A DNA stretch of 27,867 nucleotides, taken from a virus. Below, piece by piece: positions 16,187 through 25,973 of this stretch. Both the position numbers and the translations under genes were made by a program. The stretch covers positions 1 through 27,867 of IMG/VR virus record IMGVR_UViG_3300023184_000432, one strand, 5' to 3'. The notes below the pieces were generated by a model that had not been told where the DNA came from, searched no databases, and saw only the letters and a program-made list of their open reading frames with translations. Within the stretch, counting starts at the first letter, position 1. The number at the start of each line of letters is the position of its first letter.

Positions 16187-16565
16187 CGATCACCTGGCGC
16201 TGAATGCGGTTGACCATGCTTCCGCTGATGTTGAGCTTCGCCGGTTCGTTGTATCCATGCATCGCGTTCAGCTCCTTAACCGCCGCGACCTTCACCGATC
16301 CGGAGCCTTCTCGATATGCAGCGACAAGAGCCTTGACCGACATTTCCCGCGACCAAAGCTGCTTTTCCTGGACGCTTTCACGCAGCTCATTGATCCTTGT
16401 CCTCACCTTGTCGTTCTTCATTAGCTTGGATGCGTGAGGATAGATCGTGTTATCCTTCATGTCGCCAGCGTCATAAGCCGCACGATATGACTCCGCCTGG
16501 CCCATCCCGTCAGCGATGCCCTGAGCGAACGCCTCTTGCTTTGCGGTTAGGTTAACGTGAGGCAT
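16164..16565 (-). CDS. terS: Terminase small subunit, 133 aa
   Basis: The N-terminal 60 residues (LTAKQEAFAQGIADGMGQAE, then YRAAYDA) form the helix-turn-helix of the Terminase_2/XtmA family that binds the packaging site. A helical middle (KVRTRINELRESVQEKQLW) serves for oligomerisation, and the C-terminal tail (NISGSMVNRIQRQVIDG) probably contacts the large subunit. The small subunit recognises phage DNA and regulates the motor. The gene overlaps both neighbours: 14 bases with the ParB-methyltransferase gene and 23 with the large terminase gene, so all three are translated as a block. The packaging site itself, often inside or near this gene, cannot be picked out by eye. Confidence 0.9.
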   Translation of the reverse strand: MPHVNLTAKQEAFAQGIADGMGQAESYRAAYDAGDMKDNTIYPHASKLMKNDKVRTRINELRESVQEKQLWSREMSVKALVAAYREGSGSVKVAAVKELNAMHGYNEPAKLNISGSMVNRIQRQVIDGTDADD

Positions 16566-17790
16566 TGAATGTCTCGCCAGTCTCAGCGTGGATGGCTTCC
16601 TTGCCGGTGAAGTCCTGCCAGCGGGTTATGATTACGTCGCAGTATTTTGGGTCGAGTTCCATCAAACGAGCGTGGCGATTGGTCTTTTCGCAGGCGACAA
16701 GCGTTGATCCGCTACCGCCAAAGCAGTCGATAACAATATCGCCTGCCTTACTGCTATTGTTCAAAGCGCGCTCAACAAGTTCAACCGGCTTTTGTGTCGG
16801 ATGCACATAAGCACCAGTGTTGCCACGGCTCATGTACCACACGTCCGATTCAGACTTGTCGCCATACCATTGGCCACCGCAATAAAAAATAAACTCATGC
16901 TGTGGACGGTAGTTGCTGTTTCCGAGGCCGATAGATTTTTTATCCCACACGATGCAAGCTTTGACCTTGTGGCCACAGCTCTCAAGACCGGCCTCAAACT
17001 CGGCATATGTGCGCCATGTAAAACACGCATAAAGCGCGCCGCCCTCCTTCATACTGGCGGTTGACGTGGCAATTGCATCTCGCACCAAAGCAATCAGATC
17101 GTCACCCTGAAGGTCATCGTTGATAATCATGCCGTGGGCTTTGACCAGTGCGCCTTTTTTTGTGCTGCCCGCTGCGCGTCCCCCACCATAGGACATGCCA
17201 TAAGGCGGATCTGTAAAGATCATGTCCGCTCTTGCGCCATCCATCAGCGTGTCAAACGAGGACATGCTAGTGCTATCCCCACACATCAGCCGGTGCGACC
17301 CAAGCAGCCAAACATCACCCAAGACCGTCTTGGGCACCACCGGAGCCTCCGGCACCGCATCCTCGTCGGTCAGCCCTTCGGTCGGCTCTGGCTCTAACAG
17401 CCCATCGAGGAAGTTTTCATCGAACCCCAGCAGATCAAGATCGAATCCCTCCAACTTGAGATCATCAATCTCAGCCTTCAGCATATCCATATCCCACCCG
17501 GCATTAAGCGCCAGCTGGTTGTCAGCGATCACCAGTGCGCGCTGTTCGGCCTTAGACAGGTGATCAAGGATGATGGCTGGCACATCCTCCATGCCAAGCT
17601 TACGTGCCGCCAGGAGTCGACCATGGCCAGCAATGATGGTGTTCTCTCCATCGATGAGGATTGGATTGGTCCAACCGAACTGCCGGATGCTCGCCGCGAT
17701 CTGCGCGACCTGAGTATCGGAGTGCGTTCGGCTATTCGACGCGTATGGGATCAAGTCTGCGACAAGGCGCGTTTCAATTTTCAGTGTCAT
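16552..17790 (-). CDS. ParB domain fused to DNA adenine methyltransferase, 412 aa
   Basis: Residues 1-125 are a ParB/Srx-like nuclease-type domain (DLIPYASNSRTHSDTQVA, then AGHGRLLAA at 54-62). The rest is an amino-methyltransferase with the catalytic motif DPPY at 194-197, HPTQKP at 330-335 and the SAM-binding FGGSGST at 357-363. Catalytic motif before SAM motif places it in the beta group, N6-adenine or N4-cytosine; adenine is more usual for this fusion. It would methylate phage DNA against host restriction or mark DNA for replication or packaging. The start at 17790 (MTLKIETRLV) is preferred to an ATG at 17823 because GGGA lies upstream and the usual N-terminus begins here. A 25-residue ORF ends one base before this start (TGAGATG). 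It heads the packaging operon. Confidence 0.93.
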   Translation of the reverse strand: MTLKIETRLVADLIPYASNSRTHSDTQVAQIAASIRQFGWTNPILIDGENTIIAGHGRLLAARKLGMEDVPAIILDHLSKAEQRALVIADNQLALNAGWDMDMLKAEIDDLKLEGFDLDLLGFDENFLDGLLEPEPTEGLTDEDAVPEAPVVPKTVLGDVWLLGSHRLMCGDSTSMSSFDTLMDGARADMIFTDPPYGMSYGGGRAAGSTKKGALVKAHGMIINDDLQGDDLIALVRDAIATSTASMKEGGALYACFTWRTYAEFEAGLESCGHKVKACIVWDKKSIGLGNSNYRPQHEFIFYCGGQWYGDKSESDVWYMSRGNTGAYVHPTQKPVELVERALNNSSKAGDIVIDCFGGSGSTLVACEKTNRHARLMELDPKYCDVIITRWQDFTGKEAIHAETGETFNASR

Positions 17791-17791
17791 C

Positions 17792-17869
17792 TCAGTTCCC
17801 GTTCTCGGTCTGGTTCTGATCATTTACATCAGGCAAATCATTCTGTCCACGCTCCGGCAAATCAGCCAT
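17792..17869 (-). CDS. Possible 25-aa leader peptide coupled to the methyltransferase
   Basis: An ATG at 17869 opens a 25-codon frame, MADLPERGQNDLPDVNDQNQ and five more residues, ending in TGA one base before the methyltransferase ATG. GGGAG lies nine bases upstream, a better ribosome binding site than the methyltransferase has. It could be a tiny protein or just a leader whose translation delivers ribosomes to the next start. The peptide is Asn/Asp/Gln-rich and hydrophilic, with no recognisable family. A 12-codon ORF (17900 to 17862) overlaps its start as ATGGCTGA. Tiny frames can arise by chance, so this is tentative. Confidence 0.35.
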   Translation of the reverse strand: MADLPERGQNDLPDVNDQNQTENGN

Positions 17870-17938
17870 GCCTTGACACTCCCATAAACTTAATTTTCAT
17901 CTCTCAATTTTCCTTCGTATCGGTATCGTCCGCATCGT

Positions 17939-18094
17939 CGGTAACTGGTAACTCTCCTATAGGAGAGAGTTACTTTACGTTACCGCCTCCGCCTTGCCTC
18001 AAAAAAGTTACCGCTTCAGTTACCGACATTTAAGTTTCCTTTGTTTTTCAATTACTTAGCCGGTAACTATTCGGAAAGTTACCGGTAATTACCG
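17939..18094. repeat. Cluster of AGTTACCG-type repeats, candidate origin or operator array
   Basis: Within 156 bases there are about ten copies of AGTTACCG or its complement CGGTAACT, exact or with one or two changes: 17939, 17947, 17968, 17978, 18006, 18018, 18061, 18077, 18083 and 18087. Both orientations occur, and two face each other as AGTTACCGGTAATT (18077-18090). Two weaker copies (18136, 18149) lie inside the end of the primase gene. The array covers most of the primase-methyltransferase gap. Many repeats of a short site next to a replication initiator gene are the usual look of iterons bound by the initiator, so a replication origin is the leading idea; a repressor operator array is the alternative. 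Confidence 0.7.
17952..17967. other. Perfect 16-bp palindrome inside the repeat cluster
   Basis: CTCTCCTATAGGAGAG is its own reverse complement, with repeat units (GGTAACT and AGTTACT) on either side, so a longer near-symmetrical element spans 17947-17974. It could form a cruciform or hairpin, be bound by a dimeric protein, or in the leftward RNA fold as a hairpin without a loop of usual size. There is no U-tract after it, so a terminator role is unlikely. Confidence 0.65.
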
Positions 18095-18097
18095 CCC

Positions 18098-20113
18098 CTA
18101 TTTCGAGCCATTTTTAGACATCATCAAAACCCCTGCCGTAACTGGGCAAATTACCGCCCATCCATGCTCTTTCGGCTCAATTATTTCAGCGATTGTGAGC
18201 GCCCCAACCAGCTTGTCAGTGACGCTTGGCTTGCAATATTGCCTGGCCGACGCCTCGCTGATGTCGAGCTTTTTAATGATGTAATCCATAAGTTCTGATC
18301 GCGAGATATACGGGGCATCATCGATCACCTCGCCCCCAGAAGCCCACCAGGCCCCTTCAAATAGTTTTCGATGTCCGTCTAACTTCGACTCTTTCTTACG
18401 CTCTGGCGGCGAATCCTCAGCGACCAGGACTGCGCTTGAGACAGGCTCACCATCTTCATCAAGCCAGCCTTTGATCTCGACCGGCCTTAACGATGCAAAT
18501 ATGGAACTAGCCTCTTTGGCATCCTTTGACTTGCGCTGAACGATCTGCATCGGCGCGTCACCCTTAGCTGGGACGATGCTGATCTCGATCTCCAGCGCGC
18601 CCTTCCAGGCCGATGATCCTCTGGCCCGATGCTGGGCTTCATCTGATACTCCGGTGTGGTGGACCAGCACGACCGAGCAGTTGAACTCCCTCATCAGTGC
18701 CGCGCAGGCATCGATCATGGTCTTAGCATCCTGCGCGCTGTTTTCATCTCCGGCCAGGAACCTGTGCAGCGTGTCGATTCCTATGACGCTTGGAGAGACC
18801 GGCAATGCGCGGACAGCCTCGACCACCCTGGCATACCCCGCTGGCGTATTGAGATCGCACCCGGCTTTTGAGATCCACATATCAAGAGACCCAGCGCCGT
18901 GATGCTGCTTCCATGCCGCTACGCGGGATCTCAAACCGTGATGGCCTTCACCTGCTAGATAGACGGCTGGTCCTGACTTGACCCTATTTCCATGCCATTC
19001 GCCTATCCCAGCTGCGATGTGAAGAAACCAATCGAGGACAACAAATGTCTTACCGCCTCCCGATGGTCCGTGAACCATGATCAGAGCTTCTTCTTGCAGC
19101 CAGTGCTTGACCAGCCACCGGATCGGAGCCGGTTCGAGGCAAAAACTATCGGCCGGGATCAGCCAGTCGGTGATGGGCGGGTTGAGGAGTATCTTAAGAT
19201 CGTGACCAGCTTGAACGTAATCGTTCGCGTCTCCATCGATGGGAGGAGCAACAACACGAGCGCCGTGTTTGGCTGAGGCTTGATCAGCATATTTCTGGCC
19301 TGTTCCAGAGGCATCGTTGTCAGCCACAATGACGATCTCAGTCGTGGCTCCGTATTGGTCCCGGATCGTTCCGGTGACAGGGACAAGGTTCGACGCCGAA
19401 TAGGCAACGATGCAGGGGCGGTGTGTGATCTCATGAATGGTGGCTGCGGTGGCGAATCCCTCGGCAATGTAGATGGTGCCGGGTTCATCCATCGTTCCGA
19501 CCATCCAGAAGCAGCCTCCGGTCTGCCCTCCGCTGTGATAGAGCTTGCCGCCTTCCTGATCGATATATTGGATCGAGGCTAGCTTTCCGTCTGGGTTATA
19601 AAGCGGAACCATCAACCGGCCGTCACCCGTAATGCGGGATCCGTGAACGTTGATTCCCTTGCGCGCCAGATAGGGATGATCAGGACTGGCCCCGATTCCG
19701 TTCGACCATATAAGTTCAGCTGTATCGGCAACGACCTCGCGCTGGCGCTTGATCTCTGCATCTCGCGTGGCCTTGGCTTCGGCCATCCTGCGAGCGTGAG
19801 CCATTTCCTCGGCTGGTGAAAGGTTGCGCCCTATATCTGCGCGCCAGGTGGATTCGATCCCAGCTCTCCAGCATCCGAAACGACCGGCCGGGACACCGTC
19901 AGAATAGGCAACATACCATCCCGATTTGTCATGCCCTGCTTTTCCCTTGGTTCCAGAATTGAACCGGTGAACCTTTCCATCAAGAACGACGCTTTGCGGA
20001 GGTGTCATGCCGCAGCCAGATATAGCATCTATCAACTGCAGCTCGGGAGGATCAGGATCGATTGGCCTTGGAGGCGACCAGGGTCCACCGAGGATATTCG
20101 TTAGATCAGCCAT
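18098..20113 (-). CDS. Toprim primase fused to RepA-like hexameric helicase, 671 aa
   Basis: Residues 1-140 hold a binding domain (KSGWYVAYSDGVPAGRFG at about 63-80) followed by a charged helix. A Toprim domain follows with EGF at 218-220 and DND at 265-267, the acidic residues that bind metal in primases. The C-terminal half is a RecA-fold, RepA/AAA_25-type ATPase: Walker A GPSGGGKT at 349-356, Walker B VIGID at 443-447 and VLVHHTG at 482-488. The last 80 residues (ISRSELMDYIIKKL, then ASARQYCKPSV) look like a winged helix that may bind DNA. It would unwind and prime the phage origin. The ATG at 20113 (after GGGG) lies inside the end of the HTH gene, ATGGCTGA. The repeat cluster directly downstream is the likely target. 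Confidence 0.9.
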   Translation of the reverse strand: MADLTNILGGPWSPPRPIDPDPPELQLIDAISGCGMTPPQSVVLDGKVHRFNSGTKGKAGHDKSGWYVAYSDGVPAGRFGCWRAGIESTWRADIGRNLSPAEEMAHARRMAEAKATRDAEIKRQREVVADTAELIWSNGIGASPDHPYLARKGINVHGSRITGDGRLMVPLYNPDGKLASIQYIDQEGGKLYHSGGQTGGCFWMVGTMDEPGTIYIAEGFATAATIHEITHRPCIVAYSASNLVPVTGTIRDQYGATTEIVIVADNDASGTGQKYADQASAKHGARVVAPPIDGDANDYVQAGHDLKILLNPPITDWLIPADSFCLEPAPIRWLVKHWLQEEALIMVHGPSGGGKTFVVLDWFLHIAAGIGEWHGNRVKSGPAVYLAGEGHHGLRSRVAAWKQHHGAGSLDMWISKAGCDLNTPAGYARVVEAVRALPVSPSVIGIDTLHRFLAGDENSAQDAKTMIDACAALMREFNCSVVLVHHTGVSDEAQHRARGSSAWKGALEIEISIVPAKGDAPMQIVQRKSKDAKEASSIFASLRPVEIKGWLDEDGEPVSSAVLVAEDSPPERKKESKLDGHRKLFEGAWWASGGEVIDDAPYISRSELMDYIIKKLDISEASARQYCKPSVTDKLVGALTIAEIIEPKEHGWAVICPVTAGVLMMSKNGSK

Positions 20114-20288
20114 GTGTTGCAACCCCAGTCAGATAGTCGGAAAGAATCTTTAACGTAGCATAGGTTGGGTTGGTATTTGTCCCAGCTCGAATGGCTGAGA
20201 TCGTGTTTCGATGGATTCCCGTGTTTTCCGCGACCTTCTCGACATTCCTATCGTCCAGCAGCGTCTTAATCTGTTCGAGCGTGAACAA
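20106..20288 (-). CDS. Small Cro/CI-like HTH regulator with TTG start, 60 aa
   Basis: A single helix-turn-helix domain: EQIKTLLDDRNVEKVAENTG, then IHRNTISAIRAGTNTN, where VAENTGIHRNTISAIRAG is the helix-turn-helix and YATLKILSDYLTG the closing helices. The start is TTG at 20288; no ATG is suitable, and a perfect AGGAGG (20294-20299 on the other strand) sits five bases before it, which settles the start. A TTG start may keep the protein low. It is the first leftward gene at the divergent gap and its stop overlaps the primase start, so it may repress its own operon and the rightward operon. Too small for an oligomerisation domain, it is more Cro-like than CI-like. A full CI repressor is not in the window. 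Confidence 0.85.
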   Translation of the reverse strand: MFTLEQIKTLLDDRNVEKVAENTGIHRNTISAIRAGTNTNPTYATLKILSDYLTGVATHG

Positions 20289-25644: not shown

Positions 25645-25730
25645 TTCTTTCTGATATATCTTTTCCCTTTACAGGGTGGGGAAGATGTGGGAAATACTAC
25701 CTATCAACAACGCAGACCGGAGTTACCGAC
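25645..25730. other. Short gap before the accessory gene string
   Basis: An 86-nt gap, T-rich at first. TTTACA (25670 region) followed by GGGTGGGGAAG and later AAATACT could be a weak promoter, but the spacing is poor. The copy of AGTTACCGACAT at 25721-25732 shares 12 bases with the repeat cluster at 18018-18029. The 80-aa gene downstream uses GGAG next to that motif as ribosome binding site. Confidence 0.35.
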
Positions 25731-25973
25731 ATGCTTTTAAACCTGAACAGCAAGCAGCACTTCATCAACGCCGACAGCCTTATCATCGACGAGCTTGGGT
25801 CTGGTCGCTTCAACATTACCTACAACAATGATCGCACCTTTGAAGTTCTCGGCGGAACCAAGTCGGGCGGCAGCAGCTCCGAGTGGTTCGTAAAGCACGA
25901 GCTTTTTTACGGTGACCGTTGGATCAACGCGAACAGCATGATCGAGGCAATTAAGCTCGGTGTGCAATATTAA
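25731..25973 (+). CDS. Small protein of unknown function, 80 aa
   Basis: Mixed alpha/beta composition: MLLNLNSKQHFINADSLIID, a strand-rich middle (GRFNITYNNDRTFEVLGG), a Gly/Ser turn (SGGSSSEW) and an end YGDRWINANSMIEAIKLG. No cysteines, signal peptide or membrane part. I do not recognise the family. GGAG eight bases before the ATG overlaps a distant copy of the AGTTACCGACAT motif. It is separated from the nuclease gene by 86 bases, so it may begin a new transcription unit of accessory genes. A UUCG-capped hairpin follows the stop. Confidence 0.65.
   Translation: MLLNLNSKQHFINADSLIIDELGSGRFNITYNNDRTFEVLGGTKSGGSSSEWFVKHELFYGDRWINANSMIEAIKLGVQY

Follow-up and report, generated by a model that had tools for sequence, protein, structure and literature searches.

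What is a dense cluster of short repeats doing directly behind a phage primase-helicase gene, and which protein reads it? The question is raised by the window analysed here, the whole of one IMG/VR virus record and a linear fragment of 27,867 bases. An earlier note, made from the sequence alone, had proposed the cluster as a candidate replication origin and the winged-helix-like C-terminal part of the primase as its likely reader. The locus also bears on a long-standing question, that of initiator/origin specificity and how it can be changed without killing the replicon. Our analysis indicates that the array is very likely (about 0.86) an iteron-type replication origin bound by its own initiator through that protein's C-terminal domain; the steps of binding, helicase loading, opening and priming, and origin activity itself, are all inferred.

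A dense repeat array adjoins the primase-helicase gene

Within 156 bp (17939-18094) the word AGTTACCG was found in both orientations, five times exactly (starts 17939-, 18006+, 18018+, 18061- and 18077+) and nine times with up to one mismatch, and the near copies rose to 11 within 17928-18160. The array lies in the gap between the primase stop (18098) and a gene for a ParB_N-methyltransferase (16552-17823), both on the minus strand, with two weaker sites (18136 and 18149) within the 3' end of the primase gene. The features of the window are as follows:

18098-20122, minus strand: Toprim primase, RepA-type (AAA_25) helicase and C-terminal reader domain in one protein of 674 aa, the proposed initiator (Pfam Toprim_3 and AAA_25; PHROG DNA primase; PDB sequence match RSF1010 RepA, 1g8y; Foldseek T7 gp4 and RepA)
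18101-18409, minus strand: C-terminal reader domain, aa 572-674, a predicted winged helix (AlphaFold2 model; weak PDB winged-helix matches; no Pfam family)
18203-18268, minus strand: codons 619-640, residues tracking the array word (covariation)
18239-18241, minus strand: codon of residue 628, Q
18221-18223, minus strand: codon of residue 634, V
17930-18094, unstranded: whole array (proposed origin), with words, GGCAAGGCG block, palindrome, inverted words and CGATGCGG
18087-18094, plus strand: site AATTACCG, one mismatch
18083-18090, minus strand: site AATTACCG, one mismatch
18077-18084, plus strand: site AGTTACCG, exact
18061-18068, minus strand: site AGTTACCG, exact
18018-18025, plus strand: site AGTTACCG, exact
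18006-18013, plus strand: site AGTTACCG, exact
17990-18000, minus strand: GAGGCAAGGCG, the window's form of a conserved GGGGCAA(GGCG) block
17978-17985, plus strand: site CGTTACCG, one mismatch
17952-17967, unstranded: 16-bp palindrome CTCTCCTATAGGAGAG (hairpin), conserved in relatives, with compensatory stem changes
17946-17953, minus strand: site AGTTACCA, one mismatch
17939-17946, minus strand: site AGTTACCG, exact
17930-17937, minus strand: CGATGCGG, closing block of the array in many relatives, weakly specific alone
18136-18143, minus strand: weaker site AGTTACGG, within the primase gene 3' end
18149-18156, plus strand: weaker site AATTACCG, within the primase gene 3' end
16552-17823, minus strand: N6/N4 DNA methyltransferase with a fused ParB_N domain, encoded next after the array and ahead of the terminase genes
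20106-20288: Cro/XRE-type protein, 60 aa, its gene overlapping the primase start

The array is real and exceeds chance. When the whole record was dinucleotide-shuffled 300 times, no stretch of 156 bp contained more than three near copies or one exact copy, and a word-agnostic scan of the 27.9-kb record placed the densest 6-, 7- and 8-mer cluster at the array position. Most of the earlier description held: the array is non-coding and lies directly downstream of the Toprim primase-helicase gene, the 16-bp palindrome is inside it, and the sites are short and irregularly spaced, unlike strict iterons. The count of about ten copies holds only when one mismatch is allowed, and the even spread of the word across the genome that had been named as refuting was not found, the word being clustered at the array. 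The conserved unit is slightly longer than first described, since it also takes in CGATGCGG (17930-17937). The sites are 8-base words that show neither a regular period nor spacers. In single-stranded DNA folding the window array was more stable than 200 shuffles, with a contribution from the inverted words, and an Rfam search of the array gave no family match. On the minus strand a 19-aa ORF could be read through the array (MSVTEAVTFLRQGGGGNVK), but it was dismissed as the words themselves read as an ORF. Far from the array, a lone, unclustered exact AGTTACCG lies at 25721-25728, just ahead of an ORF at 25731.

Relatives keep the place and layout of the array and change its word

Primase relatives were collected from viral contigs, giving 168 distinct proteins with at least 200 b of downstream sequence, and the best 7-mer count from stop-60 to stop+350 was compared with 100 shuffles of each locus's own region. 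The array was present directly 3' of the same primase-helicase gene in 143 of the 168 relatives, which beat all 100 shuffles, and it was significant in 59/65 representatives at 90% identity. Relatives with the primase and without the array, which had also been named as refuting, are thus rare, the array being kept nearly always. What the earlier note had missed is that the word is not conserved between relatives and switches with a few residues of the C-terminal domain. Classed by their GG-led core, the words were GGTAAC (48 loci), GGAAC (33), GGGTCA (14), GGTAC (13), TGGACA (13), GGGGCA (9), GGGGGC (8), GGGGCC (7) and GGGACA (5), plus rarer ones, and the core-word density was 26 per kb in the array versus 0.26-0.60 per kb outside it, in the stretches upstream, within the gene and further downstream. 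Position and layout are therefore what relatives conserve, not the word. In this regard, a search of a phage collection with the array DNA gave no match, which is to be expected when the word is not conserved, and an apparent loss of the array in most relatives, obtained with a fixed-word search for GTTACC, was rejected when a word-free search found arrays with other words.

The arrays share a skeleton which, in the primase direction, runs from direct words to an inverted word and a GGGCAA-like block, then through two or three direct words into a CCTWTAGG-centred hairpin, and on to inverted words and often CGATGCGG. The GGGCAA-like block was found in 145/157 array regions, where other windows of these loci would lead one to expect about 30, and GATGC was weakly enriched in array regions. 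The hairpin core was flanked by at least three Watson-Crick pairs in 99/115 loci in the array region versus 2/87 occurrences elsewhere, and the stems use all four pair types; in this pair-type tally positions 1-3 were selected for pairing, so that the 99/115 versus 2/87 comparison is the fair test.

Exceptions were few. In the available sequence the array was not found 3' of the primase in about five of the 168 (L231, L310 and L311, with a weak array in L075/L076), nor was it found in L156; in L072 it was shifted by about 400 bp, and ct76p945 (43% identical) had no array 3' of the primase. In ct76p945 TGTAACA repeats lie 3 kb away, near the GC-skew minimum. Such AT-rich repeats (L320:15900-16350, MW202475), 3 kb off and at the GC-skew minimum in a distant relative that lacks an array behind the primase gene, are possibly a displaced origin. 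L156 also carries, from position 199 onwards and far upstream of the primase, an unrelated repeat array on a viral contig, with a 7-mer (CTCTGGC/AGAGCCA) 19 times in about 250 bp. Plasmid matches covered less than 80% of the primase protein. Additional relatives in bacterial genome bins (L321-L330) had recognisable arrays with the words CGGACCG, AGGGCGT, ACGTAAC, CGGTACG, CGGAACT and CGGTATA, their host assignment being uncertain because these are mostly metagenome bins.

The word follows residues 619-640 of the primase

To relate word to protein, primase pairs with the same word were set against pairs with different words, matched for identity over aa 4-540. A shared word went with greater similarity in the C-terminal part alone, and above all at aa 619-634, where identity in same-word versus different-word pairs was 0.87 versus 0.59 at an N-terminal identity of 0.90-0.97 and 0.85 versus 0.45 at 0.80-0.90. 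By column, the pair-identity excess was highest at residue 628 (0.82) and 634 (0.63), followed by 629, 631, 625 and 624, and its mean over aa 4-540 was 0.014. Shared ancestry was addressed with a FastTree of aa 4-540 from 156 sequences, which required at least 38 word-class changes. In independent pairs of GGTAAC versus GGAAC, Q628 was on the GGTAAC side in 7-8 of 8 and on the other side in none (median sign-test p 0.008), and in pairs of GGTAAC versus any other word about 13 of 16 agreed and none or one disagreed (p 0.0002). Furthermore, nearest-neighbour prediction from aa 619-640 gave the right word for 0.90 of loci when relatives at 95% identity or more were excluded, versus 0.67 from aa 4-540, and for 0.77 versus 0.38 at an 85% cut.

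The change can be followed between two near-identical primases, those of L142 (GGAAC) and L134 (GGTAAC), which differ in aa 541-674 only by V628Q, A634S and T635P. Their arrays carry words rewritten on the same skeleton between otherwise well-conserved flanks, and most sites switch together, with few apparent relics (GGTAACGGAAC in L142).

In the absence of binding data, this covariation and a confident structural model together give strong support to the earlier proposal of the winged-helix-like C-terminal part as reader of the sites. An AlphaFold2 model of aa 572-674, built with 63 relatives, had a pLDDT of 92.9 and a pTM of 0.84, with helices at 580-594, 608-619, 623-630, 638-644 and 660-672 and strands at 603-607, 648-651 and 654-657. 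The predicted fold fits a winged helix. Foldseek against solved structures returned weak matches, nearly all of them to winged-helix regulators (CprK the best, E 0.019), and the domain falls in no Pfam family. Residues 624-635 lie on or just after helix 623-630, which the model makes a plausible recognition helix without settling which helix enters the groove. At full length the modelled protein is similar to T7 gp4 and RSF1010 RepA (Foldseek), the helicase part matches RSF1010 RepA by sequence (PDB 1g8y, E 2e-5), and Pfam found only AAA_25 and Toprim_3 in the window primase.

The same reader domain and array occur on prim-pol replicases

In a viral structure library the best match to the reader domain was a prim-pol protein (TM 0.91). 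MW202867 encodes Prim-Pol, PriCT_1, AAA_25 and the reader domain, and directly 3' of this gene lie TGGGACA words, a hairpin, inverted words and two DnaA boxes. Counting MW202867, the same kind of array was found at 39 distinct prim-pol loci, 20 of them with DnaA boxes. The Prim-Pol replicases (L401:2173-4226 and L402-L475) are of the archaeo-eukaryotic type, carry the reader domain and have TGGGACA or a close variant as the word of the 3' array. Because the same domain and array occur on prim-pol replicases, reader and origin make up a cassette not confined to a single primase family. The N-terminal primase of these loci is exchanged, and the surrounding gene order resembles that of the window.

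Nearest-neighbour word prediction from Toprim to prim-pol loci failed in 38/39 loci, because the T628/K634 helix was absent from the training set. Since prediction fails on unseen helix types, our claim is limited to covariation and a partial code, and no general code is claimed. Two anecdotal cases were consistent across the primase types: a held-out Toprim locus (L326) has T628/K634 and a GGGACA word, in agreement with the prim-pol loci, and one prim-pol locus (L465) has a KQH..KASDP helix and a GGTAC word, as predicted from Toprim loci.

DnaA boxes mark the array in many relatives, and GC skew is uninformative

Across the 168 loci, the perfect DnaA box TTATCCACA was counted 198 times in array regions versus 17 times in all other sequence, that is 2.9 versus 0.017 per kb. 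Among the representatives there were 59 boxes in array regions versus 6 elsewhere, in 25/65 loci. The window array has no such box; in the lineages that bear them, DnaA boxes are independent evidence for an origin.

A turn of cumulative GC skew at the array had been suggested as a check. The window minimum is at 19119, inside the primase gene, and is uninformative for the origin. In six complete relatives the minimum mostly follows the point of transcription divergence; it was 1.1-3.2 kb from the array in five of the six, and the sixth does not fit. GC skew was set aside as origin evidence, being confounded with transcription direction.

Alternative explanations

The best surviving alternative, which we consider unlikely, is that the primase C-terminal domain binds the array as a regulatory site (operator or terminator), for autoregulation or for control of the downstream genes, and not as an origin. 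Such a site would give the same covariation, and the plus strand of the palindrome is scored as a terminator-like stem. Against this, autoregulation would act in the 500 bp ahead of the gene, and the words are missing there (0.26 per kb), the downstream genes vary (e.g. a methyltransferase in the window versus a MazG-like pyrophosphatase in 1N2-2), DnaA boxes cluster at the array and almost nowhere else, and Rfam gave no match.

Much less probable is that the array is read by another phage protein, either the upstream Cro/XRE-type protein or the downstream ParB_N-methyltransferase, the latter as a partition-like or methylation site. Complete relatives, like the window, have an XRE-type gene ahead of the primase gene and divergent from the Sak4-like gene, and a ParB_N domain is encoded beside the array in the window. 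However, the best XRE column excess was 0.19 versus 0.87 at primase residue 628 in the same 68 loci with a homologous XRE protein, which disfavours this protein as the reader for want of a covariation signal like that of residue 628, and many relatives do not have the methyltransferase gene next to the array.

It is also very improbable that the array is a packaging (pac/cos) site recognised by terminase. The terminase genes are close by in the window (terS and terL only about 1.3 kb from the array) and in MW202867, but the array stays with the primase where terminase is distant, as in XX1924 and PB15 (array at 19.5-20.0 kb, terminase at 12.1-13.7 kb), and the word tracks primase residues. Lastly, guide or repeat RNAs (TIGR- or CRISPR-like) in place of protein-binding DNA sites can be virtually ruled out: short locus-variable repeats are also seen in TIGR arrays (PMC12045711), but the spacing here is irregular, in both orientations and without a regular period or spacers, Rfam gave no match, and the array is flanked by DnaA boxes and has words that covary with a protein of DNA replication.

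Comparison with known replicons

The layout resembles that of the staphylococcal pathogenicity islands (SaPI), where a short-iteron origin lies directly downstream of the initiator-helicase gene and is read by the initiator C-terminal domain (PMC7581432, citing Ubeda 2007). SaPI Rep/ori and SCCmec Cch2 with its putative ori have short iterons directly 3' of the initiator gene, as does the phage, and C-terminal reading is inferred here from the strong covariation with aa 619-640, without binding data. SaPI Rep and Cch2, however, have other helicase types, Primase_Cterm/D5-like or DUF927 (PMC7581432), whereas the phage has a Toprim primase with a RecA/RepA-type helicase, a reader without a Pfam family, a conserved hairpin and, in many relatives, DnaA boxes. 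Because Pfam gives only AAA_25 and Toprim_3 and the PDB match is RSF1010 RepA, we do not class the phage replicon as a member of the SaPI type; by analogy, it would work like one.

P4 alpha likewise combines a Toprim primase, a helicase and a repeat-binding C-terminal winged helix in one polypeptide (PMC4234260), and this one-chain arrangement, which P4 alpha pairs with ori/crr, is shared with the phage primase, in which the winged helix is predicted. The helicase of P4 alpha is of SF3 type. The phage helicase is not of that type; it is AAA_25, with a RecA/RepA fold, and matches RSF1010 RepA and T7 gp4. RSF1010 (IncQ) has iterons plus hairpins at its oriV (PMC4234260) and shares the RepA-type hexameric helicase with the phage primase, but its RepA helicase, RepB' primase and RepC iteron binder are separate, whereas the phage has one fused protein. 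In pRN1, orf904 is a primase-helicase with a C-terminal winged helix and the origin is within 166 bp 3' of the gene (PMC4234260); unlike the phage array, it has a large stem-loop without iterons.

With respect to word switching, the initiator DNA-binding domain and iterons of the Vibrio cholerae satellite PLE covary and swap, driven by an origin-directed nuclease (PMC8263062). The PLE RepA_N protein has unrelated domain content, with no primase or helicase, and iterons of about 30 bp, while the phage family offers at least 38 word-class changes on the tree and single-residue resolution. Geminiviruses also conserve position and pattern with diverse GG-led words of 5-6 bases matched to Rep (PMC12548392), but they are ssDNA plant viruses with a rolling-circle Rep and iterons upstream of the gene. 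Classical iteron plasmids (RepE/RepA of F, P1 and pPS10) have tandem direct iterons of about 20 bp in regular phase, which the phage array does not meet, and DnaA boxes beside the iterons, which the window lacks and 25/65 representatives have.

A proposed initiator-origin cassette and its implications

In the mechanism we propose, the winged-helix domain (aa about 580-672) of the adjacent primase-helicase would bind the repeated GG-led word through a putative recognition segment at aa 619-640, with residues 628 and 634 as the most important. The bound copies would assemble the RecA/RepA-type helicase on the repeats, the hairpin region would open and the Toprim domain would prime, with host DnaA on flanking boxes possibly helping in many relatives. 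The word would change only together with the reader residues, because reader and sites must match, and reader and origin could travel as one cassette because the reader-coding end of the gene adjoins the origin. The array, its fixed place and skeleton, the word/residue covariation, the DnaA boxes and the cassette on a second primase type are established by the sequence evidence. That the array is a replication origin, as first suggested, and not another initiator-binding site is supported by the DnaA boxes of many relatives, the conserved hairpin and the known analogues, and is not demonstrated.

A bolder reading, which in our judgement could go either way, takes the reader as the DNA-recognition scaffold of a new family in which residues 628, 634 and 635 set the word. 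Phages would then change every copy of the origin word together, and do so many times over (at least 38 class changes in 156 sequences), by point change or by exchange of a cassette of the reader end of the gene plus the origin, even between Toprim and prim-pol replicases. The likely driver would be conflict at the origin, through competition from co-infecting relatives or through origin-directed nucleases or satellites. A search of the open-access literature found no description of the family, the reader domain, the skeleton or such large-scale, residue-resolved word switching, which is weak evidence as only open-access papers were covered. We regard this as a new protein family with unusually rapid word switching and a layout known from SaPI Rep/ori.

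These results propose a function for a C-terminal domain without a Pfam family and provide a rule by which origins can be located across a large set of genomes of uncultured phages. In addition, they supply dozens of matched reader/word pairs on one scaffold, some of them three residues apart, and close relatives have been isolated (Alteromonas phages PB15 and XX1924, Idiomarinaceae phage 1N2-2 and Salicola phage CGphi29), so the recognition code and the cause of word switching are directly testable. In three of these four isolates no other 7-mer cluster in the genome is as dense as the array (CGGTACA in 1N2-2, GGTTCAC in PB15 and XX1924), and in CGphi29, with the array word GGGGACAT, it is among the densest. 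CGphi29 also has a second repeat cluster (L317:15300-15700), with seven copies of a 7-mer, which is denser than the cluster 3' of its primase.
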